Shown piece after piece: positions 49,846 through 64,000 of a stretch of DNA of 64,000 bases; within the stretch, counting starts at the first letter, position 1; each line of letters begins with the position of its first letter. Where the stretch lies: the NCBI RefSeq assembly GCF_016758195.1, contig NZ_QYAC01000007.1, positions 1 to 64,000 of the forward strand, given 5' to 3'. The stretch comes from Leucobacter chromiireducens subsp. solipictus (lineage in GTDB: Bacteria > Actinomycetota > Actinomycetes > Actinomycetales > Microbacteriaceae). Under the pieces are notes generated by a model. That model had not been told where the DNA came from and did not search any database. It was given only the letters and a program-made list of their open reading frames with translations. The position numbers and the translations under genes were made by a program.

Positions 49846-49877
49846 GCGCCGGGGTCCCGCAGCTCGGGCGCTGCGCC

Positions 49878-49883
49878 TACGCT
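49878..49883 (+). promoter_or_regulatory. Leaderless -10 element (TACGCT) for cdd
   Basis: TACGCT ends 6 nt before ATG 49890, with no RBS between. Confidence 0.5.
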
Positions 49884-49889
49884 GGAGCC

Positions 49890-50318
49890 ATGACCGACGC
49901 GAACCCGACCGACGCGATTGCGCCCGGTGAGATGCCGATCGACTGGGCTGCCCTGCGCGCCGCCGCGCTCGCCGCAACCGAGCACTCCTACGCCCCCTAC
50001 TCCGGCCTGGCGGTCGGCTGCGCCGCGCTCGTCACAGATGGCCGGATCGTCACCGGCTGCAACGTGGAGAACGCGAGCTACGGCCTCACGCTCTGCGCCG
50101 AGTGCACGATGCTCGGCGCGCTCCACCTGGGCGGAGGCGGTCAGCTGCGCGCATTCGTGTGCGTGGACGGCGCGAACGCCCTGCTCACGCCGTGCGGGCG
50201 TTGCCGGCAACTGCTGCACGAGGCCGCCGCCCCGGGCATGCTGTTGGCTACCGCGCGCGGCGAGCGCACCATCGACGAGCTGCTCCCCGACGCCTTCGGG
50301 CCCGCCGCGCTCCCGTAA
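49890..50318 (+). CDS. cdd: Cytidine deaminase
   Basis: A 142-aa tetrameric-type pyrimidine salvage enzyme converting (deoxy)cytidine to (deoxy)uridine. The zinc site is Cys69-Ala-Glu71 in GLTLCAECTM (Glu71 catalytic) and Cys102/Cys105 in TPCGRCRQ. HSYAPYSGLAVGCAAL and GCNVENASYG form the substrate pocket. ATG 49890 is supported by the leaderless -10; the longer ORF overlaps the permease gene. Confidence 0.93.
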   Translation: MTDANPTDAIAPGEMPIDWAALRAAALAATEHSYAPYSGLAVGCAALVTDGRIVTGCNVENASYGLTLCAECTMLGALHLGGGGQLRAFVCVDGANALLTPCGRCRQLLHEAAAPGMLLATARGERTIDELLPDAFGPAALP

Positions 50319-50478: not shown

Positions 50479-51474
50479 CTAGTGAAGGCCGAGATATGTC
50501 TCGAGCGTTTCGGGAGAGGCCTGCAGCAGGGGATCGTTCACGGGTTCGCCCGGGAACTCACTCGCCTCGAAGAACCAGCGGTTCGACGCCGGCATTCCCC
50601 ACAGCTGTGCGCGGCGCGGATTGCTGATGTCCCAGCGGATCGGGGGTGCTTCGAGATCGATGAACTGGTAGTGCGTGTTGAAGAGTTCGACCCGGTGCTG
50701 ATCGGGATCCCGGAGGTAGAGGAACAAGGCGTTGCTGATGCCGTGTCGACCGGGGCCACGGTCGATCTCATCACCGAAGCCCAGCGCTCCGGCAACGTCG
50801 GCGGCATGCAGGAGCGATGCCCCGTCGGGAACGGCAAAGGCGAAGTGGTGCAGACGCGGGCCCCGACCATTCGTAAACACGAGGTCGTGCGTGTTCCCCT
50901 TCACCTCCATCCAGGACCCCCAGAGCTCGTCGGTATGGTCTTTCGCGGTGTACTCCGAGAGTCGCATGCCAAGCCCCGTCCAGAAGTCTGTCGCGGTCTG
51001 CACGTCATAGGTGACGACTTGGTAGTGGTCGAGTCGCTGCGGGGCGCCGGCGACGAATTCGTTGTAGTTCTGCATCTTGCGGTCGACCACGTCCATAGAA
51101 GAGGTGAACTCCATGAGCGTGCCCACCGGATCGCGGAACTGCAGCGTGGGGCCCTGATGGTCCCGTTCGACCCGCTGGTGCTCGATCCCGGCGGCAGCGA
51201 AGAACTTCTCCGCGGCGAAGATGTCGGCGTCAGTGCGCACGCGCAGGCCGACTCTGTGGGCCTGCGCCGTGTCCGCACGCTCAAGCACGAGGCTGTGATG
51301 CGCGGCTTCCTCGAGGCCGCGGAGGTATACCGTGTCGTCGGTTTCGGCGGTCACGACGAGCCCGACCACGTCGCGGTAGAAGTCTCGGCTGCGCTCCAGG
51401 TCGGTGACGCCCAGCGAGACGTGACTGGCCCGCGTGATCTGAAATGCAGGATTCATGTTGGTGACGGGGAGCAT
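50479..51474 (-). CDS. Type I extradiol ring-cleavage dioxygenase (HpaD / homoprotocatechuate 2,3-dioxygenase-like)
   Basis: A 331-aa VOC-fold dioxygenase opening a catechol ring next to the hydroxyls. Metal ligands are His150 (RLDHYQ), His210 (RLHHFAF) and Glu263 (HRVELFN); His196 (NTHD) and Tyr253 (LYLRDPD) match the second-shell His200 and Tyr257 of Brevibacterium homoprotocatechuate 2,3-dioxygenase. N-terminal SHVSLGVTDLERSRDFYRDVVGL and RGPGRHGISNA also match that enzyme. AGAGAGG precedes ATG 51474. Divergent from LysR, with a T-N11-A-type dyad between them. The natural substrate may differ from homoprotocatechuate. Confidence 0.86.
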   Translation of the reverse strand: MLPVTNMNPAFQITRASHVSLGVTDLERSRDFYRDVVGLVVTAETDDTVYLRGLEEAAHHSLVLERADTAQAHRVGLRVRTDADIFAAEKFFAAAGIEHQRVERDHQGPTLQFRDPVGTLMEFTSSMDVVDRKMQNYNEFVAGAPQRLDHYQVVTYDVQTATDFWTGLGMRLSEYTAKDHTDELWGSWMEVKGNTHDLVFTNGRGPRLHHFAFAVPDGASLLHAADVAGALGFGDEIDRGPGRHGISNALFLYLRDPDQHRVELFNTHYQFIDLEAPPIRWDISNPRRAQLWGMPASNRWFFEASEFPGEPVNDPLLQASPETLETYLGLH

Positions 51475-51566
51475 GGTGGCCTCTCTGGCAGAAACGGTGG
51501 CTTGTGGATCCCTCCACAGTCTTGAGGCGAACGCGAGTGACGGGAAGTCTTGAATCGCCTAGAGTT

Positions 51567-51587
51567 GCCATAGCTCTGAACTATGGC
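51567..51587. promoter_or_regulatory. LysR-type operator between dioxygenase and lysR
   Basis: Perfect 7-bp arms GCCATAG / CTATGGC with a 7-bp centre (contains ATAG-N7-CTAT, the T-N11-A pattern), midway between divergent starts. Confidence 0.72.
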
Positions 51588-51605
51588 GCTCGATTGGATA
51601 TTGAC

Positions 51606-52514
51606 ATGATGGATCTTCGCGCCCTGCGGTACTTCGTAGCTGTCGTCGAAGCGGGATCGCTCACGGCCGCGGCACAGGGCCTCCGGCTGTCGCAGCCATC
51701 GCTCAGCGTGGCGATCTCACGATTGGAGACCGAGGTCGGTGTGCAACTGCTGACACGCTCACCTCGGGGAGTCGAACCCACGAGCGCGGGCCGATTCTTG
51801 CTCGATGCGTCATCGCGGGTGCTGGGGGAGGTCGACGAGATCGGGACTACGCTGCGCCGGTTTGGCGCGGGACTCGTGGGCACCATTTCGATCGCTGCGG
51901 TCCCCGTGCTGATGTGGTCTCGAATCCCGCGATTGTTGCGGGAGTTTTCGCGGGTGGTGCCGGACGTTGAGGTTCGGCCCGTGGATCCGCCGCCCTGGAA
52001 AGCGCTCGAGTTGCTTCAGCAGCGGCGCGTCGACGTGGCGGCGATCCTTGTATCGGACCCCGAGCGCTTCGCGCAGCGGCACGAGGAGGCGTTCGACATC
52101 GCCGATTGGGGTGAGGTGCCGCTGGTCGCGGCACTTCCGCCCGAGCAGGCACCGGCCTCCGCCGACATGGAGCTGCGCGAGTTTGAGCGTGCCACGCTGG
52201 TGCTGCCGCATCGAACGGCGGCGGTGCCGAGCCTGCCGGAGGCGGTCGAAGAGGCGCTCCGTCGCCAGGCGATCACGCCGCGCGCCATCAGGAGCGTCGA
52301 GACGATTCAGAGCGGAATGCCGCTGATTGAAGCGGGCTTGGCATGGGGGATCTTGCCGGACCCGGATGGGGAGAGCCTGGCGCGCTTCGGGGTCGCCGTG
52401 CGGCAACTCGTGCCGTCAGCGCCGCCGCTCCGGGCGCTTGTGCTGAGCCGAAAGGGTGGGGTTCAGCGGCCGGAAGTTGCCCGGTTGCTCGCGTTTATTT
52501 CCGAGAATCGATAG
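51606..52514 (+). CDS. LysR-family transcriptional regulator
   Basis: A 302-aa activator/repressor. HTH: MDLRALRYFVAVVEAGSLTAAAQGLRLSQPSLSVAISRLETEVGVQLLTR. The LysR substrate domain begins VGTISIAAVPVLMWSRIPRLLREF. ATG 51606 or the adjacent ATG 51609 is the start; the longer ORF from 51504 crosses the operator. Likely regulates the divergent extradiol dioxygenase. Confidence 0.9.
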   Translation: MMDLRALRYFVAVVEAGSLTAAAQGLRLSQPSLSVAISRLETEVGVQLLTRSPRGVEPTSAGRFLLDASSRVLGEVDEIGTTLRRFGAGLVGTISIAAVPVLMWSRIPRLLREFSRVVPDVEVRPVDPPPWKALELLQQRRVDVAAILVSDPERFAQRHEEAFDIADWGEVPLVAALPPEQAPASADMELREFERATLVLPHRTAAVPSLPEAVEEALRRQAITPRAIRSVETIQSGMPLIEAGLAWGILPDPDGESLARFGVAVRQLVPSAPPLRALVLSRKGGVQRPEVARLLAFISENR

Positions 52515-52538
52515 ATCGTGTGTGAAATCCGATAGGAT
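52515..52538. promoter_or_regulatory. GntR box 1, upstream of gntR
   Basis: 24-bp site beginning ATCGTGTGTGAAATC and ending GGAT; the first 11 bases are identical in boxes 2 and 3. It abuts the lysR stop codon and precedes gntR by 61 bp. Confidence 0.7.
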
Positions 52539-52548
52539 TTTGGTGATT

Positions 52549-52578
52549 CCTTCCCCGCGCTGCGCTGCACGGGGAAGG
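52549..52578 (+). terminator. Hairpin between lysR and gntR
   Basis: Perfect 9-bp arms CCTTCCCCG / CGGGGAAGG with a 12-nt loop. It may terminate lysR transcripts or form an attenuator in the gntR leader, since it lies after GntR box 1. Confidence 0.55.
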
Positions 52579-52598
52579 GCTCCCGGAGAAAGGCAAAG

Positions 52599-53270
52599 AT
52601 GGCCAAGAGCAAGTCCGAGCAGTGTTACGACATCTTGAAGACCAACATCATGGATGGCACCTACGGGCCTGGCTTCCGTCTCGTGATCGACCAGCTTGGG
52701 CGCGAACACGGCATCAGCTCTGTCCCGTGGCGGGAGTCGCTCCGTCGGCTCGAGGCTGAGGGCTGGGTCGACATCATCCCGAACTCGGGTGCCGTCGTGA
52801 AAACGTTTGACACCGGTGAGTGGAAGCGGTCGATCCGAATTCTCGCTCGCCTCGAGGGGCTGGCGACCGCGCTCGCGGCCGAACGCATGACGCCGGAAGA
52901 CGTGGCGGCCGCCCGGGCGTTGAACGCGGAGATGCGTGACGCGATTGCAAACTTTGACACGATTCGATTCGGGCGCCTGAACCGCCGCTTCCACCAGTTC
53001 ATCTGTTCGCACTGCGGTGACGACCGACTGATCGCGATGGTCGAGGCCGAGTGGACGCGCATGGACATTATTCGTCGGTCCGCGTTTTGGTACGCGCCAG
53101 GCCGGGCGGTCGCCTCGCTGTCCGAGCACGATGCCATCCTCGATCTCATCGAGGCCCGCGAAGACGCGGAGACGATCGAGACGGCGGCCCGCAAACACGA
53201 GGTCAACACGTTGAACGCCGTGCTCGAACACGACGAGAGTCGTCATGCGGAGGATCCCACCCTCCCGTAA
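52599..53270 (+). CDS. GntR-family regulator, FadR/FCD subgroup
   Basis: A 223-aa regulator. N-terminal wHTH: CYDILKTNIMDGTYGPGFRLVIDQLGREHGISSVPWRESLRRLEAEGWVD. C-terminal FCD helical domain with candidate metal-binding residues: Arg-Arg-x-x-His (LNRRFHQF), His in LSEHDAI and His in RKHEVNTL. GGAGAAAGG precedes the ATG. Three similar 24-bp boxes (at this gene and both divergent catabolic operons) suggest it controls the island, including itself. Confidence 0.9.
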   Translation: MAKSKSEQCYDILKTNIMDGTYGPGFRLVIDQLGREHGISSVPWRESLRRLEAEGWVDIIPNSGAVVKTFDTGEWKRSIRILARLEGLATALAAERMTPEDVAAARALNAEMRDAIANFDTIRFGRLNRRFHQFICSHCGDDRLIAMVEAEWTRMDIIRRSAFWYAPGRAVASLSEHDAILDLIEAREDAETIETAARKHEVNTLNAVLEHDESRHAEDPTLP

Positions 53271-53287
53271 GTCTTCGGTGACGTGGT

Positions 53288-53316
53288 GGGGGACAGCGCG
53301 CACGCACGCTGCCCCC
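53288..53316. terminator. Bidirectional hairpin between gntR and DUF3500 gene
   Basis: Arms GGGGGACAGCG and CGCTGCCCCC (one bulged A), 8-nt loop, between convergent genes. Confidence 0.78.
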
Positions 53317-53332
53317 TCTGCCGCGGCTCCCG

Positions 53333-54670
53333 CTACTCGGTTGACGGTGCGGCGGCCTCCCGCTCGCGCCACTGCGCAAGGTAGGCCTTCCCGTAGTCGT
53401 TGCCGTTCGGGAGTCGCAGGGTGGTGTGCACGTGGAATCGCGCCGGCAGCCGGTTGTTGAGCCACACACCGGCGTGGTGATCGAGTTCCGCGAGGATCGT
53501 CGGACCGTGCACGCGGAAGTAGAATGGCTGCGATCCGTCGGTGGCACCGTACCAAGAGAAGAAGGTCTCCTCCGGGAATGCGATGGCCTCCGCCAGGGCC
53601 GCGGCGCGCTGCGCCGGGCGGAGGAGCAGGAGGAAGTCCTCGACGATCCGTAGGAGTGTGCGTTGCTGCGACGCATCCAGCTCACTCATCGGGATCCCCT
53701 CGGACGTGATCACCCGATTGTCGCGGAAGGCTCCGGCGACGTGGCGCTCGTCAGCCGGATGCAGACGGCCCTCGGGCATCGCCGGATCGAGCACCGAATC
53801 GAAGACGATCGCGCGCGAACGCTGTTCTGCGGTGAGAGATTCCGCAAGTTCGAGCGCCCACCGCTCACGAGACGCGAAGAGCGGTGGGCGCTCTCCGTCG
53901 GAGAGCGCCGGTTCCGCGCCGAGGAATACGGGAGCGATCACGTTCCGGCCGCCGACGGTCACGAAGTTCAGCGCGACATGATGGCCGAAGAGTTGCCAGC
54001 CCCACGGCTCGTCGGACCCGGGAGCCCCAAACAGGGCGAACCAGTAGCTTTCCGGATTCATGATGCGCGGGAGCTCGACGAGCTCCCCCAAGTGTCCGTT
54101 GAGTTCCATGGCCTCACGCACGCGGTCGTAGCCGTCGTCGCTCAGCGATGCGCGGAGCACCTCGTGCACCGCGGCGACCACATCCGGGCTCTGATCTTCC
54201 AGGCGCAGCCCGGTCCGGAAGAACACGAATTCAGGGTTGCTCCAACCGCGCCACTCGGGGGCGTCAATGGGGTACGAAACCGATTTCAGCTGCGCGTCGG
54301 AGAGGAGCGTCAGGAGTGCCGAGGCGGCCGCTGCGGGCTGGGGATCCCAGCCCGCAGGAGGCGCAGCGGCAGACGCGGGGAGGCGATAGAGGTGTGAGCG
54401 GACACTCCCGTCAGTGGTGATGCCGACATACGGCTCGTCGTAGAGCCGCCGCCAGGAGTCGAGCAGCTCGCGCAGAAACGGAGCCTGGTACCGATCGGCC
54501 GTGAACTCCTCGTAGCTCATCTCCCGGTAGGGAGCGAGCACAGGATCCTGCAGCTCGTACAGGTGCTCCCGGTAGCTGCCGGAGGAGAGGGTGACGCCTT
54601 CGGAGCGTCCGCTCGTCCGATCGCTCGAGAAGAACTCGTCGATGTCGTTCGATTGTGCGTCCTGTGACAT
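53333..54670 (-). CDS. DUF3500 family protein
   Basis: A 445-aa soluble protein. The segments WGWQLFGHHVALNFVTVGGRNVIAPVFLGAEP, FREN-like FRDNRVITSEGIP, and FYFRVHGPTILAELDHHAGV with HVHTTLRLPNGNDYG match the DUF3500 family, whose biochemical role is unknown. Multiple conserved His residues suggest a metal site. No signal peptide. GGGGAGG precedes ATG 54670. It lies 23 nt downstream of the degenerate amidohydrolase and is probably co-transcribed with it. Confidence 0.82.
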   Translation of the reverse strand: MSQDAQSNDIDEFFSSDRTSGRSEGVTLSSGSYREHLYELQDPVLAPYREMSYEEFTADRYQAPFLRELLDSWRRLYDEPYVGITTDGSVRSHLYRLPASAAAPPAGWDPQPAAAASALLTLLSDAQLKSVSYPIDAPEWRGWSNPEFVFFRTGLRLEDQSPDVVAAVHEVLRASLSDDGYDRVREAMELNGHLGELVELPRIMNPESYWFALFGAPGSDEPWGWQLFGHHVALNFVTVGGRNVIAPVFLGAEPALSDGERPPLFASRERWALELAESLTAEQRSRAIVFDSVLDPAMPEGRLHPADERHVAGAFRDNRVITSEGIPMSELDASQQRTLLRIVEDFLLLLRPAQRAAALAEAIAFPEETFFSWYGATDGSQPFYFRVHGPTILAELDHHAGVWLNNRLPARFHVHTTLRLPNGNDYGKAYLAQWREREAAAPSTE

Positions 54671-54693
54671 GGTGTGATGCCTCCCCGTCGCGG

Positions 54694-55743
54694 CTAGATC
54701 GGCAGGTTGAAGAGGCGCTTCGCGTTGCCCGACAGCACCAGTTCTCGGTCTGCGTCGCTGATCTCCAATTCGTTCTTCACGAAATCAACGCCCTGGCCCA
54801 TCCAGCTGTAGAACACGGGGAAGGAGGAACCGAACAGGTAGTGATCCGCGCCGTTGATTTCGAGCGCGGCCTCGACCTGGGTTTTTCCCCAGGAATGCGG
54901 GTGGGTCATGTCGAAGAAGATGTTCTCGTCGAGGTACTGCTTGATCTTCTCGCCGCCCGTCGGATCCAAGCGCTGCATCGCCTCGGTCTTGTTGGTCCGG
55001 TGCGGGGTGAGGAGCGCAGTATTTGCGAACCAGTTGCCGCCCATCATCGTGTGGATAAAGCGGAGCCCGGGCATCCGATCGAACATGCCGCTGAAGAGTT
55101 CGCGGCCGACGGCAACACCCTGGTCCACGATGCGGCCGTACTCGCGTCGGAGGTTCGTGTAATCAATCACAGACTTGTACTCGACCGGGAGGGGCGTGTG
55201 GTGCACGACGACCGGGATGTTGAGCTTCTCAATTACCTTGAGGTAGGGCTCAAACACCTCGTCGTCGAGGTAGAGCTGACCGTAGTGGCAGGCGAGCTGC
55301 ACCCCGACGGCGCCGAGTTCGCCCACGCAGCGCTCCAGCTCGTAGATGTTTTCCTTGCCACCCCACGGCGGAACGCACGCTGTGGAGAAGAGCCGCCCGC
55401 CGGATCGTGCGACGATGTCGGCCGCGTTGTCGTTGACCGCGCGACAGGTCTCCACGTCAAGCCATTCCTGCCAGACGGGGACTCGCATCACGCCGTAGTC
55501 GACGCCGGCCTCGTCCATCGCGGCAAGCTTGGACTCAACCGAATAGTCGCCCTCGACGTAGTTGAGGTTCTGGTAGCCCTTGGGTTTCTCCAGGACTAGC
55601 TGCTTCTTCCCGTTGTCCATGGTGATGACGCTCGCGATCTCCCCAAAGCCGCGCGGTGCGCTGTTGAGGAAGCCGTTCAGGATCTTTTCATTGGTGAAGA
55701 GATCCTCGGGGAGGTGGTGGATGTTGATATCGACGACGGTCAT
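54694..55743 (-). CDS. ACMSD-like amidohydrolase (amidohydrolase 2 family) with altered metal ligands
   Basis: A 349-aa TIM-barrel protein. Relatives include aminocarboxymuconate-semialdehyde decarboxylase, resorcylate decarboxylase and LigW/LigY enzymes. The usual HxH after strand 1 reads Asn7-Ile-His9 (DINIHHLP), and the late metal-ligand Asp in FGSDxP is Ser307 (FGSSFP). VVVHHTP and IHTMMGG retain the middle His residues. It may be metal-free, use a changed metal site, or be non-catalytic. AAAGGAG precedes ATG 55743. A GntR box lies 67 bp upstream. Confidence 0.83.
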   Translation of the reverse strand: MTVVDINIHHLPEDLFTNEKILNGFLNSAPRGFGEIASVITMDNGKKQLVLEKPKGYQNLNYVEGDYSVESKLAAMDEAGVDYGVMRVPVWQEWLDVETCRAVNDNAADIVARSGGRLFSTACVPPWGGKENIYELERCVGELGAVGVQLACHYGQLYLDDEVFEPYLKVIEKLNIPVVVHHTPLPVEYKSVIDYTNLRREYGRIVDQGVAVGRELFSGMFDRMPGLRFIHTMMGGNWFANTALLTPHRTNKTEAMQRLDPTGGEKIKQYLDENIFFDMTHPHSWGKTQVEAALEINGADHYLFGSSFPVFYSWMGQGVDFVKNELEISDADRELVLSGNAKRLFNLPI

Positions 55744-55810
55744 GTCGGTGCTCCTTTATGGTGCTGCTTCGTTGCGGTCCTGGTGAGCACTCTCACAGAC
55801 GTGAGAGGTG

Positions 55811-55834
55811 ATCGTGTGTGAAATCATACGCGAT
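55811..55834. promoter_or_regulatory. GntR box 2, amidohydrolase/DUF3500 promoter
   Basis: 24-bp ATCGTGTGTGAA...CGAT with inner half-sites GTGTGTGA / TCATACGC (6 of 8 pair). Rest of the 296-bp divergent region 55744-56039 holds box 3 and no visible gene. Confidence 0.78.
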
Positions 55835-55986
55835 CTTGCAACTTTGCGGGAACCCCGAGTGCCGCGGTGTTCCGCGGAAGGTCGGAAGAGTTCCAGTTCA
55901 GGACGTATTTAGCGGCATTCTCCGCGCTCGAGTGGGGTGCGGGGGCGCTCCGGGAATCGTCGGCAAACTCGGGAATCGCACTTGAA

Positions 55987-56010
55987 ATCGTGTGTGATTC
56001 TGCGTACGAT
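55987..56010. promoter_or_regulatory. GntR box 3, dienelactone hydrolase promoter
   Basis: 24-bp site starting ATCGTGTGTGA and ending CGTACGAT; same length and ends as box 2. 30 bp before the dienelactone hydrolase start. Confidence 0.75.
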
Positions 56011-56039
56011 ACGAAGCAGCGTTCGAAGGGGAATGGGAC

Positions 56040-56828
56040 ATGATGGACGAGCTCACTACACGAGATATTGCCTACCGCCACGGTGGTACGGAGATGCTCG
56101 GGGTCTTGTGCGCGCCAGCCGGTGCCCGGGAACTTCCCGCTGTGCTGCTCGTTCACGACGCCTTCGGGCTTGGCGGCGACACCATTGCGCTTGCCCGGGA
56201 GCTCGCGGCTCTGGGACTCGCGGTGTTTGCCGCTGATGTGTGGTCGCACAGGTACGCCCCGACCGAAGCAGCGGAACTCGGGTCGCTGATCGACGCGATG
56301 GTCGCAGATCGCGCGGAATGGCTGGGGCGAATTGCCGCTGCCCATGCTGCCGCAGCGGCGCAGCCAGAAATTGATGCCCAGGCACTCGTCGGCCTCGGCC
56401 ACTGCTTTGGCGGATCGTCAGTGCTCGAACATCTTCGAGTGGGAGGGCAGCTTCGCGGTGTGGTTGCCATCCACGCCGGGCTCGACCTCCTCGCGCCAGG
56501 GTGGGAGTCCGCGCTGGGGGACTCCGAGGGCGGGTGCGCGCCGCGCGTGCTGCTCTGCACCGGAGCGGACGATCCGATGGCGACAGCAGCGCAGCGAGCC
56601 GAGCTCCAAGCGGGCCTTGACCAGGCAGCAATCGAGTGGGAGACACACCTCTACAGCGGCACCGTTCACGGGTTTACTAGCCCGCATAGTGCCCAATCAC
56701 CCCGTCCAGACGTGGTGATGTATCACCCGGGCAACGCCGCGCGGGCCAGGCAGGCGACGCTTCGCTTTCTCGCGGAGGCGTTCCCCGGCCGCCTCGCTTT
56801 CCCGACCCCCGAGAACGAATTCGCCTAG
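56040..56828 (+). CDS. Dienelactone hydrolase family protein
   Basis: A 262-aa alpha/beta hydrolase. Nucleophile elbow GLGHCFGGSS with Cys122, the hallmark of true dienelactone hydrolases; VLLVHDAFGLGGDT oxyanion region; CTGADDPMA acid; YSGTVHGFTSP with catalytic His. Hydrolyses enol-lactones such as those from (modified) ortho cleavage. Adjacent ATGs at 56040/56043; GAAGGGGA precedes. First gene of the plus-strand operon. Confidence 0.88.
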   Translation: MMDELTTRDIAYRHGGTEMLGVLCAPAGARELPAVLLVHDAFGLGGDTIALARELAALGLAVFAADVWSHRYAPTEAAELGSLIDAMVADRAEWLGRIAAAHAAAAAQPEIDAQALVGLGHCFGGSSVLEHLRVGGQLRGVVAIHAGLDLLAPGWESALGDSEGGCAPRVLLCTGADDPMATAAQRAELQAGLDQAAIEWETHLYSGTVHGFTSPHSAQSPRPDVVMYHPGNAARARQATLRFLAEAFPGRLAFPTPENEFA

Positions 56829-56876
56829 CCAATACCGGCCACGAATCGTCGCGAGCACCTCGCGGATACGCATGAC

Positions 56877-56883
56877 AAAGGAG
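56877..56883 (+). promoter_or_regulatory. Shine-Dalgarno AAAGGAG deciding the TTG start
   Basis: AAAGGAG lies just after an upstream ATG (56872) and 6 nt before TTG 56890, so TTG is the probable initiation codon. Confidence 0.7.
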
Positions 56884-56889
56884 TACAGC

Positions 56890-58182
56890 TTGAATATCGC
56901 CATTATTGGTGCCGGCCCCGGCGGGCTGATCACCGCATTGCGTCTGCAGCAGCAGGGCTTTGCGCCCACCATCTACGAGACGGTGCCTGAGCTGAAGCCC
57001 CTGGGGGTCGGCGTCGACATTAAGGTCTATGGACTCAAAGAGATCGAGGAGATCGGGCTTCTCGAGGAGTTCCGTGCGCTGTCCGTCGACGCGGTTGATT
57101 CCGTGTTCTACAACCACTACGGACAGGAAATTTACGCCGAGAAGTGCGGCGTGCACATGGGTTATGAGCATGAACAGCGATTCGTGCACCGGGGGGAACT
57201 GCAGATGCTGTTCTATCGCACCGTGCTCGAACGCCTGGGGAAGGACTCCATCGTGTTGGGGGCCCGCGTCGTCTCATACGAGCAGGACGCCACCGGCGTG
57301 ACGCTGCACCTGGAACACCGCGATGGGCGCTCCGAGACGGTACGGCACGACGCCGTGATCGCCGCCGACGGCATCAACTCCGCGGTTCGCAAGCAGATGC
57401 ACCCCGAGCTGTCCGAACCGCACTACTCCGGCATCACGATGTACCGCGGAACCACGCTGCGTGACCCGTTCCGTGACGGCCACACGATCCTGCACATCGG
57501 CGACCCGAGGATCTCGTCGATGATCGTGTACCCCATCGCGGACAACTTCGAGGGCACCGGTAAAACCCTGGTGAACTGGGTGGTCGAAGCGGAACGTGAC
57601 GAGACCGTCGAGGACTGGAACCAGCTCGGTTCGGTCGAGGAAATTCTGCCCTACTACGCCGACACCAACATCGACTTCATCGACATCCAGCAGCTCATCG
57701 CCGATGCCCGGGAGGTCTATCTGTTCCCGCTGATCCGTCACGAGCCGCTCGACACCTGGGTGGATGGGCGGGTGGTCCTGCTGGGCGACGCGGCGCACGC
57801 GATGTATCCGCGGGGCGGCAATGGCGTCTGCCAGGCATTTCTCGATGCGAGGGTTGTTGCCGAGCAGCTCGCGGCCCACGCCGACCCACACGCGGCATTC
57901 GTGGCATACGACGAAGAGCGCCGCGTCCCCGTGAATCGGATCGTGATGAACATGCGTGGAGAGGGGTACGAGGTGATCCGGCGCATGGTCGCGGAGCGCA
58001 CGGACGGCAAACCATTCGTGGACAAAACCGACATCGAAGCGGTGCTCCCACTCGCTGAGGCCGACGAGCTGTTCTCGAACTACCACCGGCTTGTCGGGCA
58101 ACCGCTCCGACCCGGACACCACACCTATTCCAGCGGCTTCCGTACCTGGGACACGGCACACCCCGTGGAAGTGGTCGCATGA
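56890..58182 (+). CDS. PhzS-like FAD-dependent monooxygenase
   Basis: A 430-aa class A flavoprotein hydroxylase. From the TTG the protein reads MNIAIIGAGPGGL, placing the GxGxxG FAD motif at the extreme N-terminus, as usual. PLGVGVDIK, FVHRGELQMLFYR, AADGINSAVR, GITMYRGTT, TLVNWVVEAERD and VVLLGDAAHAMYPRGGNGVCQAFLD closely follow the order in PhzS (phenazine carboxylate monooxygenase). It probably hydroxylates, possibly with decarboxylation, an aromatic acid. The stop overlaps the NTF2-like gene by 4 nt. Confidence 0.87.
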   Translation: MNIAIIGAGPGGLITALRLQQQGFAPTIYETVPELKPLGVGVDIKVYGLKEIEEIGLLEEFRALSVDAVDSVFYNHYGQEIYAEKCGVHMGYEHEQRFVHRGELQMLFYRTVLERLGKDSIVLGARVVSYEQDATGVTLHLEHRDGRSETVRHDAVIAADGINSAVRKQMHPELSEPHYSGITMYRGTTLRDPFRDGHTILHIGDPRISSMIVYPIADNFEGTGKTLVNWVVEAERDETVEDWNQLGSVEEILPYYADTNIDFIDIQQLIADAREVYLFPLIRHEPLDTWVDGRVVLLGDAAHAMYPRGGNGVCQAFLDARVVAEQLAAHADPHAAFVAYDEERRVPVNRIVMNMRGEGYEVIRRMVAERTDGKPFVDKTDIEAVLPLAEADELFSNYHRLVGQPLRPGHHTYSSGFRTWDTAHPVEVVA

Positions 58183-58649
58183 GCCGGATCACCGCGGCCG
58201 CCGCCGAGATCGAGACTCAGCTGCGCGAAACCGAATCGCGCCGTCAGCGAGCACTGATTGCCGGGGATATCGAGACCCTACGCGACCTCTTCGACGAGTC
58301 GATCGTGCACGTTCACGCCCCGGGCGTCGTGCAGCACAAGGCGGAGTTGATCGAGCACGTTGAGGTGCGCAGGCCCTACCTGGAGATCACGCGGGGTGAG
58401 CTTGAGTTTCGCGTCGTGGGCGAGGACGGGCGCGGCGACGTCGCAATTGTAACGGGTGCCCTGACGAACCGGATGCGTGCCCCCGGGGGCGGAGAACGTA
58501 CCCTGAGTGGGCCCGTGACGCAGGTGCTCCACCGCGCCGACGATGGCGTTTGGCGCTTCGTGAGCTTTCACATGACCCCGTTCGGTGAGAAGGTCTGGGG
58601 TGAGCTGCCCTCGGAGCAGCGGAGCAACGACGCGGGGGTGGCACGATGA
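58179..58649 (+). CDS. SnoaL/NTF2-like (DUF4440-type) protein
   Basis: A 156-aa cone-fold protein. RALIAGDIETLRDLFDESIVHVHAPGVVQHKAELIEHV and GALTNRMRAPGGGERTLSGPVTQVLHRADDGVWRFVSFHMTPF fit the DUF4440/SnoaL group. Such proteins are small isomerases, dehydratases or hydrolases in catabolic pathways; no catalytic assignment is possible. Four-nt overlaps with both neighbours imply coordinated expression with the monooxygenase and FAH enzyme. Confidence 0.82.
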   Translation: MSRITAAAAEIETQLRETESRRQRALIAGDIETLRDLFDESIVHVHAPGVVQHKAELIEHVEVRRPYLEITRGELEFRVVGEDGRGDVAIVTGALTNRMRAPGGGERTLSGPVTQVLHRADDGVWRFVSFHMTPFGEKVWGELPSEQRSNDAGVAR

Positions 58650-59500
58650 AACTCGCGCGATTTGACACGGGCGACGGCCAGATCCGGCTCGGCAGGGTCG
58701 ACGGGGAGACCGTGATTGAGCTCTCCTCAGTGACCGGCGGGCACGCATCGCTCCGGGAGATCCTGCCGCGACTCGACGCCCTCCGCGACGCGATCCTCGC
58801 AGCTGAGGGGGAGTCGTTTTCGCTCGCAGCTGTCACCCTTGAGGCACCGATCGACGCGCCCCAGAAATACCTTGCGATCGGGATGAATTACAAGGAACAT
58901 GCGGCGGAGGCCCGGCTAGCCGGGATCCCCACCCCCGTGAATCAACTCTGGTTCAACAAGCAAGTGTCGTGCATCGTGGGGCCGAATGCGGACATCGAAA
59001 AACCCCGGGTCTCCGATGCACTCGACTATGAAATCGAACTCGGCGTCGTGATCGGGCAGCGGTGTCGCCACGTGAGCGTCGAAGACGCATACTCGGTCAT
59101 CGCGGGGTACGTGGTCGCCAACGACGTTTCAGTGCGCGACTGGTTGCAGAAGCGATCGCCGACCTTCACCCTGGGCAAGTCCTTCGACACGCACGGACCG
59201 ATCGGCCCCTGGCTCACCACCGCCGACGAGATCCCGGATCCGCAGAACTTGCGCATGCGGCTCACCGTCAACGGTGAGGTACGCCAAGACTGGGGTACTG
59301 ACGACATGATCTACGACATCGCGGCCCAAATCGCCGAGTTGTCGACGGTGATGACCTTGATGCCCGGTGACATTCTCGCCACGGGGACCCCGGCCGGGAT
59401 CGGTGCCCCCACCGGGAACTTCCTATGCGTCGGTGACGTGGTGCGGGCTGAGATCGAGGGCCTTGGCGCGCTCGAGAACACCGTGGTTCAGGAGGCATGA
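58646..59500 (+). CDS. Fumarylacetoacetate hydrolase (FAH) family enzyme
   Basis: A 284-aa FAH-fold protein. YLAIGMNYKEHAAEA, the metal-binding DYEIELGVVIG (Glu-x-Glu), then VANDVSVRDWLQKR, TLGKSFDTHGPIGPWL and LMPGDILATGTPAGIGA. Members include 2-oxo-hept-3-ene-dioate hydratase/isomerase, oxaloacetate decarboxylase and acylpyruvate hydrolases, all acting on ring-cleavage products or beta-dicarbonyls. Likely processes the product downstream of the extradiol enzyme. RBS not obvious; coupled to the preceding gene. Confidence 0.88.
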   Translation: MKLARFDTGDGQIRLGRVDGETVIELSSVTGGHASLREILPRLDALRDAILAAEGESFSLAAVTLEAPIDAPQKYLAIGMNYKEHAAEARLAGIPTPVNQLWFNKQVSCIVGPNADIEKPRVSDALDYEIELGVVIGQRCRHVSVEDAYSVIAGYVVANDVSVRDWLQKRSPTFTLGKSFDTHGPIGPWLTTADEIPDPQNLRMRLTVNGEVRQDWGTDDMIYDIAAQIAELSTVMTLMPGDILATGTPAGIGAPTGNFLCVGDVVRAEIEGLGALENTVVQEA

Positions 59501-59501
59501 C

Positions 59502-59936
59502 ATGAGTCCCCGAGTCAGCGTGTATCTCGAAGGGTTTGCCCACGAGAACCCCGTTCCGGTGGCCAGCCGGATCGGGCCGTTCGTGCACTCCGGAGTATTG
59601 ACCGGTCGCGATCCCGATACCGGAGAGATGCCGGAGGGGATGGACGCGCAGTGCGCCAATGTGTTTGCGCACGTGCGTGAACTCCTGGCCGCCGTGGGAG
59701 GCGGGCCCGATGACATTGCGAAGCTGACCTGCTACCTCGTGAATTATCGAGACCGAACCGCACTCAACCGCGAGTGGGACGCGCTGTTTCCGGACCCGGA
59801 CAATCGACCTGCGCGCCAGGTGATGTCGACGGTGCTTGACCGAGGCGCGCTCATACACTGCGATCTGGTCGCGATCCTCGGAGACGCATACGCGGGATCG
59901 GGAGCACCAGCCGAACAATCTTCATCCCTGACGTGA
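59502..59936 (+). CDS. RidA/YjgF-family protein with altered active site
   Basis: A 144-aa RidA-fold protein. GPFVHSGVLTGRDP, then CANVFAHVRELLAAVGGGPDDIAKLTCYLVNYRDR, and the signature RPARQVMSTVLDRGALIHCDLVAIL. The enamine-binding Arg (Arg105) is present, but the position of the catalytic Glu120 of E. coli RidA is His119. Could be a 2-aminomuconate-type deaminase or other divergent activity. GGAGG precedes ATG 59502, 1 nt after the FAH stop. Confidence 0.84.
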   Translation: MSPRVSVYLEGFAHENPVPVASRIGPFVHSGVLTGRDPDTGEMPEGMDAQCANVFAHVRELLAAVGGGPDDIAKLTCYLVNYRDRTALNREWDALFPDPDNRPARQVMSTVLDRGALIHCDLVAILGDAYAGSGAPAEQSSSLT

Positions 59937-60018
59937 CCGCGTAATTTCTGATCCCCAAAGTTCGCAATAATGTGCAGCGGTCGCTGCCGCTCGCACGATA
60001 CGACGCAAGGAGGCGTCC

Positions 60019-61557
60019 ATGTCCAAGAAATCATTCCTCATCAAGTCCCTCGTCCCGCTCAGCATCGCCGGGCTGCTCCTCACCGGGTGCTCTGGTGGCT
60101 CGGGTAATACCGGTGATTCATCTGCGCAGGCGCGAGACACCCTGCGGGTCAACTGGGGAGGGTTCCCGGAAACCTGGGAGCCGGGCTCGCAGGCGATGGA
60201 GCCCGGCTACATGCGGGTGCCGTACGAGACACTGGTGCTGCGGGAGAAGGACGGGACCATCCTGCCGAATCTGGCCACCGAATGGGAGTTCGGTGACGGT
60301 GGGAAATCACTGACGCTGACGCTGCGTGAAGGGGTCACATTCCACGACGGCACGGCGTTCAACGCCGCGGCAGTCAAGACGAACGTCGAGTACGTTCGCG
60401 ACGTGGTGGGGGGCCAATTCGGGGGGCCGCTCTCGTCGGGCGTGGAATCGGTCGAAGCGATCGATGAGACGCACGTGGCGTTCGTCTTCAGTCGTCCCTT
60501 CAGTACGTTCCTCGATCTGCTCAGTCAACGAAACCTGCCGATGGCGTCGCCAGCGGCAATTGCCGACGGCAGCATTAAGACGGCACCGGTCGGGACGAGC
60601 CCGTGGGCCTACGATCCCGAGAAGTCGATCGACGGCACCAAGATGAGCTTCGTTGAGTACGCCGACTACTGGGGCGAGAAGCCCGGATTCCCAAATATCG
60701 AGCTGTTCGGCATTGCGGATGACACCGCCGCGACGGCCGCGCTCCTCAGCGGCGACCTGGACATCACAGACACCGAACTTGACGAGTTCCCGCGGCTCGA
60801 ATCCGCGGGTAACGTTGAGACCTTTGACTACCCGGCCATCCGCGTGAATCTCAACTTCTTTGACCGAGGTGAGGGCGGCCTGTTTGCGGACCAGCAGGTG
60901 CGAGAGGCGCTGTGCTACGCGATCGACGGCGACGTGATCGCCAGCCTGAGTGAAGACCGCGTCGGCGAAACGCAACACTTCACCGAGGGAGAATCCGGGC
61001 ACAATCCCGACATCGTCGGATACAACGGGAACCTCAAGAAGGCCACCGAGATCTGGGCAGAGCTCGGAAACCCCGCGATCACCGCGCAGATCGGGGCCGC
61101 GCCGTTCAACAAGCAAGAGATCACGGTGCGGGCCGAGCAGATGAGCCAACTCCCGAACGTGAACATCACCGTTCAGGAACTCACAGCACCGCAGTACTTC
61201 TCGACGTGGAACAACGGCAGCTACGCCCTCGGCGTCGGGAATAACGCGCAGATCACCCCCGCGGACTGGTACGGCAGTTGGTTCTCGGAGAACGCCCCCC
61301 TGAATAGCTCAAAGGTCGTCAGCGAGCAGCTCTCGGGACTGGCGGGGAAGGCTCTGGGGTCCACGGGGACCCCGGCGGCTGAGGCAAACTGGCAGGCCGT
61401 CATGAAGGAGATCTCCGACGAGGCGCTCGCGTGCAGCCACTCCATCAACATGGAGACGATCGCCTACAACACTGACACAGTCGCCGACGTGCAGCCCGCC
61501 TCGCAGGTCTGGGAACAGAACCTGATCGACTACGCCGCGGTGAAGCCCGCGCAGTAG
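60019..61557 (+). CDS. Oligopeptide-type ABC transporter substrate-binding lipoprotein (family 5)
   Basis: A 512-aa binding protein (SBP_bac_5). Signal LVPLSIAGLLLTGC with lipobox Cys about residue 24; mature domain with EPGSQAMEPGYMRVPYETLV, LATEWEFGDGGKSLTLTLREGVTFHDGTAFNAAAVKTN and REALCYAIDGDVI. AAGGAGG precedes ATG 60019. Such proteins bind peptides, nickel chelates, opines or aromatic acids; catabolic context favours a small organic substrate. Followed by a hairpin, then the permease genes. Confidence 0.9.
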   Translation: MSKKSFLIKSLVPLSIAGLLLTGCSGGSGNTGDSSAQARDTLRVNWGGFPETWEPGSQAMEPGYMRVPYETLVLREKDGTILPNLATEWEFGDGGKSLTLTLREGVTFHDGTAFNAAAVKTNVEYVRDVVGGQFGGPLSSGVESVEAIDETHVAFVFSRPFSTFLDLLSQRNLPMASPAAIADGSIKTAPVGTSPWAYDPEKSIDGTKMSFVEYADYWGEKPGFPNIELFGIADDTAATAALLSGDLDITDTELDEFPRLESAGNVETFDYPAIRVNLNFFDRGEGGLFADQQVREALCYAIDGDVIASLSEDRVGETQHFTEGESGHNPDIVGYNGNLKKATEIWAELGNPAITAQIGAAPFNKQEITVRAEQMSQLPNVNITVQELTAPQYFSTWNNGSYALGVGNNAQITPADWYGSWFSENAPLNSSKVVSEQLSGLAGKALGSTGTPAAEANWQAVMKEISDEALACSHSINMETIAYNTDTVADVQPASQVWEQNLIDYAAVKPAQ

Positions 61558-61571
61558 CCCGCGTCCAGAGC

Positions 61572-61613
61572 CACGTGGATGCTGGCCCCGCGCATCGGGC
61601 CGGCATCCACGTG
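61572..61613 (+). terminator. Hairpin after the binding-protein gene
   Basis: Arms CACGTGGATGC (61572-61582) and GCATCCACGTG (61603-61613) with further inner pairing. Likely a partial terminator that raises binding-protein mRNA relative to the permeases. Confidence 0.72.
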
Positions 61614-61657
61614 ATGGTGCCCCACGCATTCGACCCAATCCTGAGGAGACAGAACTG

Positions 61658-61699
61658 ATGGCCTTTCGCATGAACAGAACGGGGGAAGGAACATGCTGA
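61658..61699 (+). CDS. Possible 13-aa leader peptide overlapping the permease start
   Basis: ATG 61658 encodes MAFRMNRTGEGTC then TGA 61697-61699, overlapping the permease ATG 61693 in another frame. GAGGAG lies ~10 nt upstream. It may couple translation into the permease, or be chance. Confidence 0.3.
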   Translation: MAFRMNRTGEGTC

Positions 61700-62640
61700 A
61701 GCTCATCGGGACGCGGCTCGCCCTCGTCGTACCCCAGCTCCTGCTCATCTCCGCGCTGGTGTTCCTGCTGGTGTATCTCGTGCCGGGCAGCGCAGCCTCG
61801 CTTGTCCTGGGAGATGCAGCCGCGAGTCCGGAAGACATCGCGCGCGTCGAGGCCCAGCTGGGCCTCGACCGACCATTCTTCGTGCGACTGTTCGACTGGG
61901 TTGGATCCGCGATCCAGGGGGACCTCGGTACCTCCCTGCAGAGCGGTCGTCCCGTGGCCGCGATGATCGGCGAGAGGCTCCCCGCGACGCTGTCACTGAT
62001 CGGTGGCGGCCTCATCGTCGCGATGCTCGTGGGCATCGGTCTGGGCGTGCTCGCCGGTACGCATGCTCGTCGCCCGATCGATCGCGGCGTGACCGCCCTG
62101 ACGTCGCTGCTGCAGGCGATTCCCGAGTTTTGGTTGGGTCTACTGCTCGTCCTCGTCTTTGTGATTCAGCTGCACGTTGCTCCGGTCGTTGCGTGGGTAC
62201 CGCCCGAACAGGACTTCGGTGGCTGGCTTCGCGGGTTGATCCTCCCGTCCCTCGCGCTCGGTGCCGGGGCCTCCGCGCTGATCGCGCGCCAAACCCGCAC
62301 CGCGGTTGCCGCGGCGCTGGCGTCCCGTTACGCCGACACTCTCACGGCGGCGGGAGTGCCGCGCCACCGAATCATCTGGGTGTACGCCCTCAAGAACGCG
62401 ATGGTTCCGGTGCTGGCGGCATCCGCGCTGGCGGTTTCGATTCTGTTCGGCACGAGTCTCGTGATGGAACGAGTATTCGCGTTCCCCGGGGTCGGCTCCA
62501 TGCTCGTCAACGCCGTCATCGGCAAAGACTTCCCGCTCGTCCAGGGCACCGTGCTCGTCGTCGCGATCATCATCATCGCCGTCAACCTCGTCGTGGATAT
62601 TGGCTACGGCGTCATCAACCCGAAGGCGAGGCCCCAGTGA
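61693..62640 (+). CDS. Oligopeptide-type ABC transporter permease (DppB-like)
   Basis: A 315-aa membrane protein. Six helices with the DppB N-terminus LIGTRLALVVPQLLLISALVFLLVYLVPGSAA, QLGLDRPFFVRLFDWVGSAIQGDLGTSLQSGRPV, and the EAA loop RYADTLTAAGVPRHRIIWVYALKNAMVPVL. GAAGGA precedes the ATG. The stop overlaps the GTG of the following fusion gene by 4 nt. Confidence 0.92.
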   Translation: MLKLIGTRLALVVPQLLLISALVFLLVYLVPGSAASLVLGDAAASPEDIARVEAQLGLDRPFFVRLFDWVGSAIQGDLGTSLQSGRPVAAMIGERLPATLSLIGGGLIVAMLVGIGLGVLAGTHARRPIDRGVTALTSLLQAIPEFWLGLLLVLVFVIQLHVAPVVAWVPPEQDFGGWLRGLILPSLALGAGASALIARQTRTAVAAALASRYADTLTAAGVPRHRIIWVYALKNAMVPVLAASALAVSILFGTSLVMERVFAFPGVGSMLVNAVIGKDFPLVQGTVLVVAIIIIAVNLVVDIGYGVINPKARPQ

Positions 62641-64000
62641 CTCACCCAACTCCTCCCAAGACGCAGGTGTTTCGTGTCGCCCACGCGACGGCCCCGCAGC
62701 GCGGAAGCAGCGTGTTCCTCCGCCGCCTCGTGAGACAACCCGCCACGATCCTGTCGCTCAGCTGGCTTGCCGTGGTCCTGATCTGCGCCGTGTTCGCCAG
62801 CGCCCTCGCCCCGTACGATCCACTGCAGAACACCTTTGCCGCGGATGCCCTCTTGCAGGGGCCGAGCGCGGAGCACTGGTTCGGTACCGACGACAACGGG
62901 CGGGATGTGCTCAGCCGCATGATCTACGGCGCACGCATCGCACTCCTTGTCGGACTGGGCTCGGTACTGATCGCCATGCTCATCGGTGTCCCGATCGGCC
63001 TGCTCCTCGGATACCGAGGCGGGTGGTGGGACCGGATCGGCACCCGGTTCGTTGACATTCTCGACGCGCTCCCCGGACTGCTTGTCGCCGTCGCAGTGAT
63101 CGCAATTCTCGGCCGCGGACTTCCCGCCCTCATGCTCGCCATCGGCCTGATTTTTGCCATGAACTTCGCGCGGATGACGCGCGCGATCACGCTCACCGAA
63201 CGCGGAAAAATGTACATCGATGCCGCGAAGGTCTCAGGGCTTCGCGAGGCTGCGATCCTGTTCAAACAGATTCTTCCCAACCTCGTCGGGCCGCTCGTGA
63301 TTCAGGGCGCGATCCTCACGGGGTCCGCGATCATTATCGAATCAATGCTGAGCTTCCTGGGATTGGGGCTGCAGTCGGCCGTTCCATCGTGGGGCGGACT
63401 GCTGGGGCTCGCTGCCACCAAGCTGGCGGTGCAACCGTTCCTCGCGATCCCGCCAGGCATTGCGATCGTGCTCACGGTGCTCTCTTTCAATATGATCGGC
63501 GACGGCATCAACGATGCGCTTGCCGGAGAAAAGCGCAAGCTCATCAAGCCAGTGAAGCGCGTGACTCCGGCGATTCCTGCCGACCGTGAAACCGCGAATC
63601 CTGCCGTGGACGGGCCGCAGCCGGTGCTCGATATCCGTGATCTCGAGATCGCGCTGAATACTCCAACGGGCACGCGCTCACTGGTTCGCGATGTCACTCT
63701 GACCGTCGGGCGCGGTGAGATCGTAGGCCTGATCGGCGAGTCGGGATCGGGGAAATCGACGCTCGCGCGGGCGATTCTGGGGCTCATGCAGCCGGGGATC
63801 GGCGTCTCGCGGGGGCAGATTCTGCTCGACGGTGAAGACATCGCTGGGCTGGGGGAAAAGGATCTTCGGAGCATCCGGGGGACCCGCATGGCCGCCGTCT
63901 TCCAGGATCCGATGGCCTCGCTTTCGCCCGTGCACACCGTGGGCAAACAGCTCACCGAGACGTTGCGCACGCACGCCACACTCACGAAAGCCGAGGCTCG
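62637..64000 (+). CDS. DppC-DppD fusion: ABC permease plus ATPase, truncated by window end
   Basis: GTG 62637 opens a frame with no stop through 64000 (454 codons seen). Residues 1 to ~300 are a DppC-like permease: APYDPLQNTF, HWFGTDDNGRDVLSRMIYGARIAL, DAAKVSGLREAAILFKQILPNLVGPLV, and SFLGLGLQ. After a ~35-residue linker (GEKRKLIKPVKRVTPAIPAD) an ABC ATPase starts: VLDIRDLEIAL, Walker A GESGSGKST, Q-loop FQDPMASLSP. The signature and Walker B lie beyond the window. Such permease-ATPase fusions occur in actinobacterial oligopeptide-type importers. Completes the importer with the two genes upstream. Confidence 0.9.
   Translation, partial: MTHPTPPKTQVFRVAHATAPQRGSSVFLRRLVRQPATILSLSWLAVVLICAVFASALAPYDPLQNTFAADALLQGPSAEHWFGTDDNGRDVLSRMIYGARIALLVGLGSVLIAMLIGVPIGLLLGYRGGWWDRIGTRFVDILDALPGLLVAVAVIAILGRGLPALMLAIGLIFAMNFARMTRAITLTERGKMYIDAAKVSGLREAAILFKQILPNLVGPLVIQGAILTGSAIIIESMLSFLGLGLQSAVPSWGGLLGLAATKLAVQPFLAIPPGIAIVLTVLSFNMIGDGINDALAGEKRKLIKPVKRVTPAIPADRETANPAVDGPQPVLDIRDLEIALNTPTGTRSLVRDVTLTVGRGEIVGLIGESGSGKSTLARAILGLMQPGIGVSRGQILLDGEDIAGLGEKDLRSIRGTRMAAVFQDPMASLSPVHTVGKQLTETLRTHATLTKAEA

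Follow-up and report, generated by a model that had tools for sequence, protein, structure and literature searches.

The last part of a 64,000-nucleotide stretch of Leucobacter chromiireducens subsp. solipictus DNA (positions 1 to 64,000 of contig NZ_QYAC01000007.1, hereafter the window; the genome comprises 11 contigs and 3.5 Mb in all) carries a real, conserved cluster of aromatic catabolic genes. On the minus strand lie an extradiol dioxygenase of the HpaD type (50479-51474; 337 bits against the TIGR02295 cut-off of 321.4), which is a diverged second HpaD paralogue; a DUF3500 protein (53333-54670; PF12006, 306.5 bits), a probable ring-opening enzyme; and, directly upstream of the latter, an amidohydrolase of the Amidohydro_2 family (54694-55743; PF04909) with an altered metal site. 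The plus strand holds a dienelactone-hydrolase-family enzyme with a Cys nucleophile (DLH; 56040-56828; PF01738), a PhzS-like hydroxylase dependent on flavin adenine dinucleotide (FAD; 56872-58182; PF01494; NF005720 at 428 bits against a cut-off of 400), an NTF2-like DUF4440/SnoaL protein (58179-58649; PF14534), an FAH-family acylpyruvase or hydratase-decarboxylase (58646-59500; PF01557, 239 bits) and a RidA-family protein (59502-59936; PF01042, scanned within a longer open reading frame). The DUF4440 frame overlaps those of both its neighbours, the hydroxylase and the FAH protein, and is therefore presumably co-transcribed with them. All the genes named in an earlier note on this DNA are intact reading frames, at the positions and in the families given there, as confirmed by Pfam and NCBIfam scans. 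The components are of known kinds, while their combination is new as far as literature searches show; the open-licence literature searched yielded no previous account of such a bacterial cluster.

Conservation of the cluster across genomes

In a family sample of 299 genomes, orthologues are counted at E up to 1e-100 for the hydroxylase and the dioxygenase, at E up to 1e-60 for the amidohydrolase, and at 58% identity or above for the DUF3500 protein. By these limits, one and the same set of 13 genomes contains the hydroxylase, the dioxygenase and the DUF3500 protein, and 12 of the 13 also hold the amidohydrolase; DUF3500 matches at E up to 1e-60 are present in 25 of the 299, 13 of them at or above the identity limit. 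The chance of such identical gene sets is about 5e-23 on the assumption that genomes are independent, which does not hold for related ones. Because the genes co-occur in the same 13 genomes, a chance grouping is not credible. In one genome (G317) the dioxygenase is present but located about 70 kb from the rest of the cluster. In an order sample that serves as background only, the amidohydrolase is found in 7 of 179 genomes. The joint occurrence of DUF3500, degenerate amidohydrolase and PhzS-like genes, suggested in the earlier note as a check, is thus confirmed, and its idea of an aromatic catabolic island with cooperating parts is borne out by these genomes and by individual loci. That all the enzymes serve one shared pathway is highly probable.

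The loci compared number 81, consisting of the best 80 of at least 565 confirmed DUF3500 places (L018-L097), a selection rather than a census, and a Thioclava plasmid (L113), which was reached via its amidohydrolase, so that this gene does not count there as independent. Gene counts at the loci denote tblastn presence under identity thresholds set after inspection of the data, and since some loci end at contig edges, absences are to be read as lower bounds. First-pass maps of reading frames were replaced by codon-scored frames, because antisense frames in GC-rich DNA misled the picking. Loci at which DUF3500 is accompanied by the hydroxylase, the amidohydrolase or the dioxygenase, termed type A, make up 37 of the 81, leaving 44 other loci, whose FAH genes (about 33-40% identity) fall below the FAH threshold of the counts. 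Hydroxylase and amidohydrolase stand together in 31 of the 37 type A loci, and in 19 the dioxygenase is present as well; orthologues of the GntR/FCD regulator and of the solute-binding protein described below are found in 23 and 11, respectively.

Related gene sets extend into the Pseudomonadota, namely Gemmobacter, Cedecea and Thioclava. On the Thioclava plasmid, FAH, hpaH and HpaI genes run in line with DUF3500, and hpaD, DLH, SDR, NTF2, hydroxylase, amidohydrolase and RidA genes adjoin this line; an arginase-family gene annotated agmatinase is situated just before RidA (plasmid p3, L113:17791-18831). The cluster is also carried by Candidatus Leucobacter sulfamidivorax (L021), whose name refers to sulfonamides. 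DUF3500 matches with one in-frame stop are seen at G368:C9:1665568-1666836, G287:C14:96381-97634, G239:C1:128973-130241 and G238:C1:2613450-2614700, for which a pseudogene, a sequencing error or an alignment running past the gene end are candidate explanations.

Candidate ring-opening arms and their regulators

The dioxygenase, which passes the curated HpaD cut-off, matches homoprotocatechuate 2,3-dioxygenase (HPCD) in the PDB (E 3.6e-69) and is 53-94% identical across 23 relatives of the window type. His150 is kept in 23 of 24 sequences (one gap), and His196, His210, Tyr253 and Glu263 in all 24; we take His150, His210 and Glu263 to be the 2-His-1-Glu metal site and His196 and Tyr253 to be the catalytic His and Tyr. 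The substrate-carboxylate ligands of HPCD are presumably Arg243, His248 and Arg293, and two of these three positions are kept, as Arg239 and His244. A separate homoprotocatechuate set resides on contig C8 (128949-136521; L108), with a canonical HpaD (435 bits) that is 40% identical to the window dioxygenase. Beside it, HpaE (634.6 bits; cut-off 638.35), HpaH (348.4; 351.5) and HpaI (298.6; 368.8) all score below their cut-offs, and an HpaG-like match is found on the same contig; HpaE, HpaG, HpaH and HpaI are not present in the window.

In relatives, genes of this pathway accompany the cluster. All 13 cluster genomes have HpaH, a hydratase of the homoprotocatechuate meta-cleavage route, compared with 96 of the full 299 (2e-7, under the same assumption of independence), and in six of the 13 it lies no more than 1 kb from the dioxygenase. 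Among type A loci, HpaH, HpaI and HpaG-like genes are found in 25, 24 and 23 of 37, respectively, and each in 0 of the 44 other DUF3500 loci, in which HpaD-type genes likewise give no match; the dioxygenase is present in 23 loci, 17 of them also with HpaH. The product of the dioxygenase is thus likely to pass to HpaE, HpaG, HpaH and HpaI. The resemblance to the known homoprotocatechuate pathway lies in the HpaD-type score and in the HpaG, HpaH and HpaI genes adjoining in many relatives. The block differs from it in its diverged HpaD, in the placement of the downstream genes outside the window, and in the company of DUF3500, hydroxylase and amidohydrolase genes.

Part of the remaining set resembles a fungal pathway. 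The Aspergillus DUF3500 protein AN10530, treated by Martins in 2024, reportedly has an FAH-like enzyme and an FAD monooxygenase in the same cluster, and a conserved short protein of the fungal tetrahydroxybenzene pathway is said to act on 5-hydroxydienelactone. The combination of DUF3500, FAH-like and FAD monooxygenase families is likewise present in the block (Pfam). According to a review, Aspergillus nidulans converts gallate to 1,2,3,5-tetrahydroxybenzene, and the fungal DUF3500 protein is proposed to convert the latter to 5-hydroxydienelactone (PMC12388069). From its chemistry, hydrolysis of the hydroxydienelactone by DLH would give 2,4-dioxoadipate, an acylpyruvate of the kind typically used by FAH-family enzymes, which would yield pyruvate and malonate. 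Because DLH and FAH chemistry fits the DUF3500 product in this way, the lactone-type and FAH enzymes would form one arm and the extradiol enzyme the other, and the mixture of enzymes that had seemed to match no pathway is largely explained by the fungal proposal (PMC12388069). The block differs from the fungal pathway in the addition of a PhzS-like hydroxylase, DLH, DUF4440, RidA and a homoprotocatechuate-type arm, and in being bacterial and known from genes alone. A tetrahydroxybenzene-type arm is somewhat more probable than not.

In an alignment of 35 DUF3500 sequences (L046, with its in-frame stop, was dropped, and L081 and L094 were left out), His230/231 are invariant and His398, His399, His413 and His415 nearly so. 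The predicted model has a mean pLDDT (a per-residue confidence score) of 85 and one significant solved-structure match, 9x86 (E 5.4e-16), which is ApmL of amipurimycin biosynthesis, an antibiotic pathway. A GHH motif is common to the two, but the His398/399 pair is not shared and the HxH (413/415) falls outside the aligned part, so that the chemistry of the DUF3500 protein may differ from that of 9x86. Ring opening by DUF3500 is probable, with the fungal report and the gene neighbours as its basis. Among the partner enzymes, DLH has a GHCFGG motif with Cys122, together with Asp177 and His210; the hydroxylase has 2rgj/3c96, which we take to be PhzS, as best solved relatives (2rgj, E 6e-73), and its lower-scoring PDB kin include salicylate hydroxylase and decarboxylating enzymes for vanillate and 4-hydroxybenzoate; the PDB relatives of the FAH protein are HpaG, L-2,4-diketo-3-deoxyrhamnonate hydrolase and acylpyruvase; and the RidA family is confirmed by Pfam, with curated NCBIfam models below cut-off.

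The amidohydrolase had been described as ACMSD-like and degenerate. Its family and its degeneracy hold, but among solved structures it is closer to gamma-resorcylate and 5-carboxyvanillate decarboxylases than to ACMSD. At the positions that we take to be metal ligands (the HxH motif, His181 and an Asp), the first His of HxH is replaced by Asn7 in 35 of 36 homologues (one gap) and the canonical Asp by Ser307 in all 36, with His9 kept in 35 and His181 in 36. The protein thus shares the Amidohydro_2 family with these decarboxylases, its best PDB matches, and differs from them in the Asn and Ser at two presumed canonical metal positions, which flags the subfamily as a candidate new activity. At 81-97% identity in the relatives listed, it ranks with the best-conserved members of the cluster; the dioxygenase is equally conserved in several loci, and in Gemmobacter the FAH protein is more so. 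A role as an aryl-ketone C-C hydrolase is a guess, and a doubtful one. On a plasmid of Enterococcus raffinosus (L114, 13998-19460), a homologue (42%) is found with a LysR gene, a ceramidase-like protein and a beta-glucoside phosphotransferase system; this set may be related anaerobic polyphenol genes.

Two regulators are encoded between the dioxygenase and the DUF3500 protein, both on the plus strand: a LysR regulator divergent from the dioxygenase (51609-52514; HTH_1 and LysR_substrate in Pfam; start codon picked to match the LysR N-terminus) and a GntR/FCD regulator (52599-53270; Pfam, NCBIfam). A 24-base GntR-type motif has three plus-strand sites in the 64 kb, against 0.00 expected, located before gntR (52515-52538), before the amidohydrolase (55811-55834) and before DLH (55987-56010); as the motif was spotted by eye and then written as a pattern and searched, the chance figure is post hoc. 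With a matrix built from these three sites and 150 random background pieces per locus (L018-L049), the best site falls in the top 2% of background before DLH in 16 of 21 loci, gntR in 15 of 22, the amidohydrolase in 11 of 31, the hydroxylase in 8 of 28, DUF3500 in 2 of 32 and the dioxygenase in 0 of 20; other true sites within a locus raise the background, and where DLH and the amidohydrolase are divergent the same site is counted twice. The gap between the dioxygenase and lysR holds the inverted repeat CCATAG-N7-CTATGG (51568-51586), a probable LysR box. Strict 6-bp inverted repeats gave few sites upstream of the dioxygenase, and the looser ATAG-N6-8-CTAT, used instead, is present in 7 of the 14 loci that have lysR and in none of the 7 that lack it. 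Since the GntR sites skip the dioxygenase, which has a LysR-linked box, the two regulators probably run two arms. The earlier note had named a lack of co-regulation between the dioxygenase and the plus-strand operon as grounds for giving up its reading; at operator level the two are indeed separate, and the dioxygenase is tied to the rest of the cluster nonetheless, by co-occurrence and by the gene order of Microbacterium oryzae.

Link to flavonoids and competing readings

A great deal of carbon passes through soil and gut as flavonoids and other plant polyphenols, and to our knowledge few complete aerobic bacterial routes for polyphenols have been described. Around the 44 other DUF3500 loci, neighbours include a quercetin 2,3-dioxygenase in 22, a BD-FAE-type esterase in 30, an FAD hydroxylase in 33 and a GH78 alpha-L-rhamnosidase in 10; one of the quercetin 2,3-dioxygenases has 2h0v as its best PDB match (E 3e-64). 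This is the set expected for conversion of rutin or quercetin to protocatechuate and 2,4,6-trihydroxybenzoate, and a decarboxylating hydroxylase would turn the latter into 1,2,3,5-tetrahydroxybenzene. Within L050-L097, for example at L061:6499-12707, quercetinase, esterase, FAD hydroxylase, FAH, sometimes rhamnosidase, and DUF3500 form a probable rutin/quercetin cluster; no description of a cluster of this type was found in the open-licence literature searched. These Arthrobacter-type loci, with their quercetinase (depside) route, resemble the block in DUF3500, an FAH-family gene and an FAD hydroxylase, sometimes also in a Dpp-type importer and a rhamnosidase. Type A loci differ in lacking quercetinase and a matching esterase (0 of 37 each), and since they lack quercetinase, a flavonoid route here would differ from the depside route. 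In Microbacterium oryzae (L036, type A), an alpha-L-rhamnosidase gene opens a head-to-tail row that continues with those of the amidohydrolase, DUF3500 and the dioxygenase; about 29, 2 and 10 bases, in that order, separate them, and HpaH and HpaI follow.

In gut anaerobes, quercetin is degraded via taxifolin and alphitonin to 3,4-dihydroxyphenylacetate (PMC11170127). Because this route gives 3,4-dihydroxyphenylacetate and the other DUF3500 loci often hold quercetinase, a flavonoid with a catechol B ring would feed both arms. The known cleavage of the flavonoid A ring by fde/ifc genes (Herbaspirillum, Variovorax) is similar in that an FAD monooxygenase is followed by a glyoxalase-type dioxygenase (PMC11069340). 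It has, however, the cupins IfcD1/D2, whereas no cupin is found among the 10 block proteins scanned (Pfam), and the available part of that report names no DUF3500, DLH or amidohydrolase. With neither a cupin in the scanned proteins nor a named DUF3500 partner in that part of the report, the naringenin fde/ifc route was set aside; PMC4440368 likewise gave no mention of fde.

From gene families, co-occurrence, gene order, operator-like sites and conserved residues, we infer a substrate, an order of steps, intermediates and regulator actions as follows. The importer, of Dpp type here, would take up a polyphenol or its glycoside, and the amidohydrolase and the PhzS-like hydroxylase would act early and split the molecule. 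In the first arm, a catechol ring would be released as homoprotocatechuate (3,4-dihydroxyphenylacetate) or an analogue and opened by the HpaD-type dioxygenase, and HpaE, HpaG, HpaH and HpaI, encoded here on contig C8, would complete the degradation. In the second, a phloroglucinol-type ring would be hydroxylated to 1,2,3,5-tetrahydroxybenzene or an equivalent 1,2,3,5-tetraoxygenated ring, which DUF3500 would open to a hydroxydienelactone; DLH would hydrolyse the lactone to 2,4-dioxoadipate, FAH would split this into pyruvate and malonate, and DUF4440, RidA and, in relatives, an SDR would assist. GntR would control the second arm and the early enzymes, and LysR the dioxygenase.

Such two-arm catabolism of a plant polyphenol, for which a flavonoid whose B ring is a catechol is the likeliest candidate, is the reading preferred here, though tentatively, at somewhat under even confidence. 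A flavonoid, the best-fitting substrate class, is about evenly balanced between probable and improbable. The most specific claim is unlikely as a whole: an undescribed aerobic route from flavonols or flavanonols, at the taxifolin/alphitonin stage, to a homoprotocatechuate-type catechol and a phloroglucinol-type ring, spread across Actinomycetota and Pseudomonadota, in which the amidohydrolase would be a novel hydrolase of aryl-ketone C-C bonds and DUF3500 would represent a novel class of ring-opening enzymes. The cluster is in any case a defined, widely shared gene set that would join two ring-opening chemistries, and the quercetinase neighbours together with the tetrahydroxybenzene precedent point to a function for bacterial DUF3500.

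Several observations weigh against two-arm polyphenol catabolism. Quercetinase is found in 0 of 37 type A loci, and rhamnosidase in only one of them (M. oryzae), with none in the window or in L002 and L003. The amidohydrolase is not matched in G242, one of the 13 cluster genomes, and in Enterococcus raffinosus the amidohydrolase homologue stands without the rest of the cluster. Pseudomonas helleri (L064) and Raoultella (L090) hold second-arm genes, but the stretches examined there contain neither the hydroxylase nor the amidohydrolase nor the dioxygenase. GntR sites skip the dioxygenase. The canonical HpaD on contig C8 makes a second HpaD appear superfluous, barring a difference in substrate or timing. 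In all 24 dioxygenases Ala289 occupies the position of HPCD Arg293, which we take to bind the substrate and which the C8 HpaD retains; for this reason the substrate may be an analogue rather than plain homoprotocatechuate, and confidence in the first arm and in the whole is slightly lowered. 9x86 (Amc20/ApmL), the sole DUF3500 relative with a solved structure, bears a title that names it a dehydratase, so that an oxygenase role for DUF3500 is not secured.

The last two points favour a linear, single-ring pathway, which is unlikely, though likelier than the rivals that follow. There, the hydroxylase would hydroxylate a phenylacetate-type acid and the HpaD-type dioxygenase would open the ring, with a dehydratase-like DUF3500 acting alongside DLH, DUF4440, FAH and RidA as lyases and hydrolases that handle an extra oxygen on the chain; the diverged HpaD (40% identity, Ala for the presumed ligand Arg293) suggests that the substrate is other than plain homoprotocatechuate. 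Against it stand the second-arm genes of Pseudomonas helleri and Raoultella, which occur without the dioxygenase, and the 44 other DUF3500 loci, which lack HpaD-type, HpaH and HpaI genes and often hold quercetinase, an esterase and another hydroxylase. The fungal report, moreover, assigns the DUF3500 gene to ring opening (PMC12388069).

That fungal route begins at gallate (PMC12388069), and the lower-scoring PDB kin of the hydroxylase (salicylate hydroxylase and the decarboxylating enzymes) would suit breakdown of gallate or 2,4,6-trihydroxybenzoate only, the dioxygenase helping with a side product. This is quite improbable, as the dioxygenase and HpaH accompany the cluster in 13 of 13 genomes and in M. 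oryzae 10 bases separate the DUF3500 stop codon from the start of the dioxygenase.

The earlier note had inferred import, hydroxylation and cleavage of a nitrogen-containing or carboxylated aromatic, with 2-aminophenol or 3-hydroxyanthranilate meta-cleavage as its comparison. A hydroxylase, an extradiol enzyme, an FAH protein, an ACMSD-like protein and a RidA-like protein are all present, and 2-aminomuconate deaminases are RidA-like. In the ACMSD-like protein, however, two canonical metal-site residues, the Asp and the first His, are missing; the NCBIfam matches of the HpaD-type dioxygenase include no model for an aminophenol or hydroxyanthranilate dioxygenase, and relatives have HpaG, HpaH and HpaI instead. 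On the altered metal site and these neighbours the aminophenol or hydroxyanthranilate route was rejected, its probability being very small, and a nitrogen-aromatic pathway is not supported at present.

Equally remote is a sugar-acid pathway of deoxy-rhamnonate type, built from FAH, SDR, an HpaI-like aldolase and the monosaccharide-type (AraG/AraH-like) importer of relatives: the best NCBIfam match of the FAH protein is 2,4-didehydro-3-deoxy-L-rhamnonate hydrolase, but at 224.6 bits it is far below the cut-off of 500, the HpaI-like match is also under its cut-off, no sugar dehydrogenase or dehydratase is found among the 10 block proteins scanned, and the aromatic hydroxylase and extradiol dioxygenase are present in 13 of 13 cluster genomes.

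Importer and limits of the block

Downstream of RidA, the plus strand encodes a Dpp/Opp-type importer, composed of a lipoprotein-like solute-binding protein (60019-61557; so named on the basis of sequence and of the adjoining importer genes), a permease (61693-62640; PF00528, PF19300) and the start of a fused permease-ATPase-ATPase (62637-64000; PF00528, PF12911, two ABC_tran stretches and oligo_HPY). In relatives, its place is taken by a monosaccharide-type (AraG/AraH-like) or an MFS importer. The fused gene encodes 890 amino acids and reaches its stop at contig position 65309, past the window edge, and an MFS gene follows 205 bases later (65515-67041). The block thus contains the genes that the earlier note had assigned to it, but it continues beyond the limit drawn there. 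On its other side, an ABC transporter ATPase and permease with an adjoining cytidine-deaminase-like frame, read by eye, occupy 47825-50318 and look unrelated.

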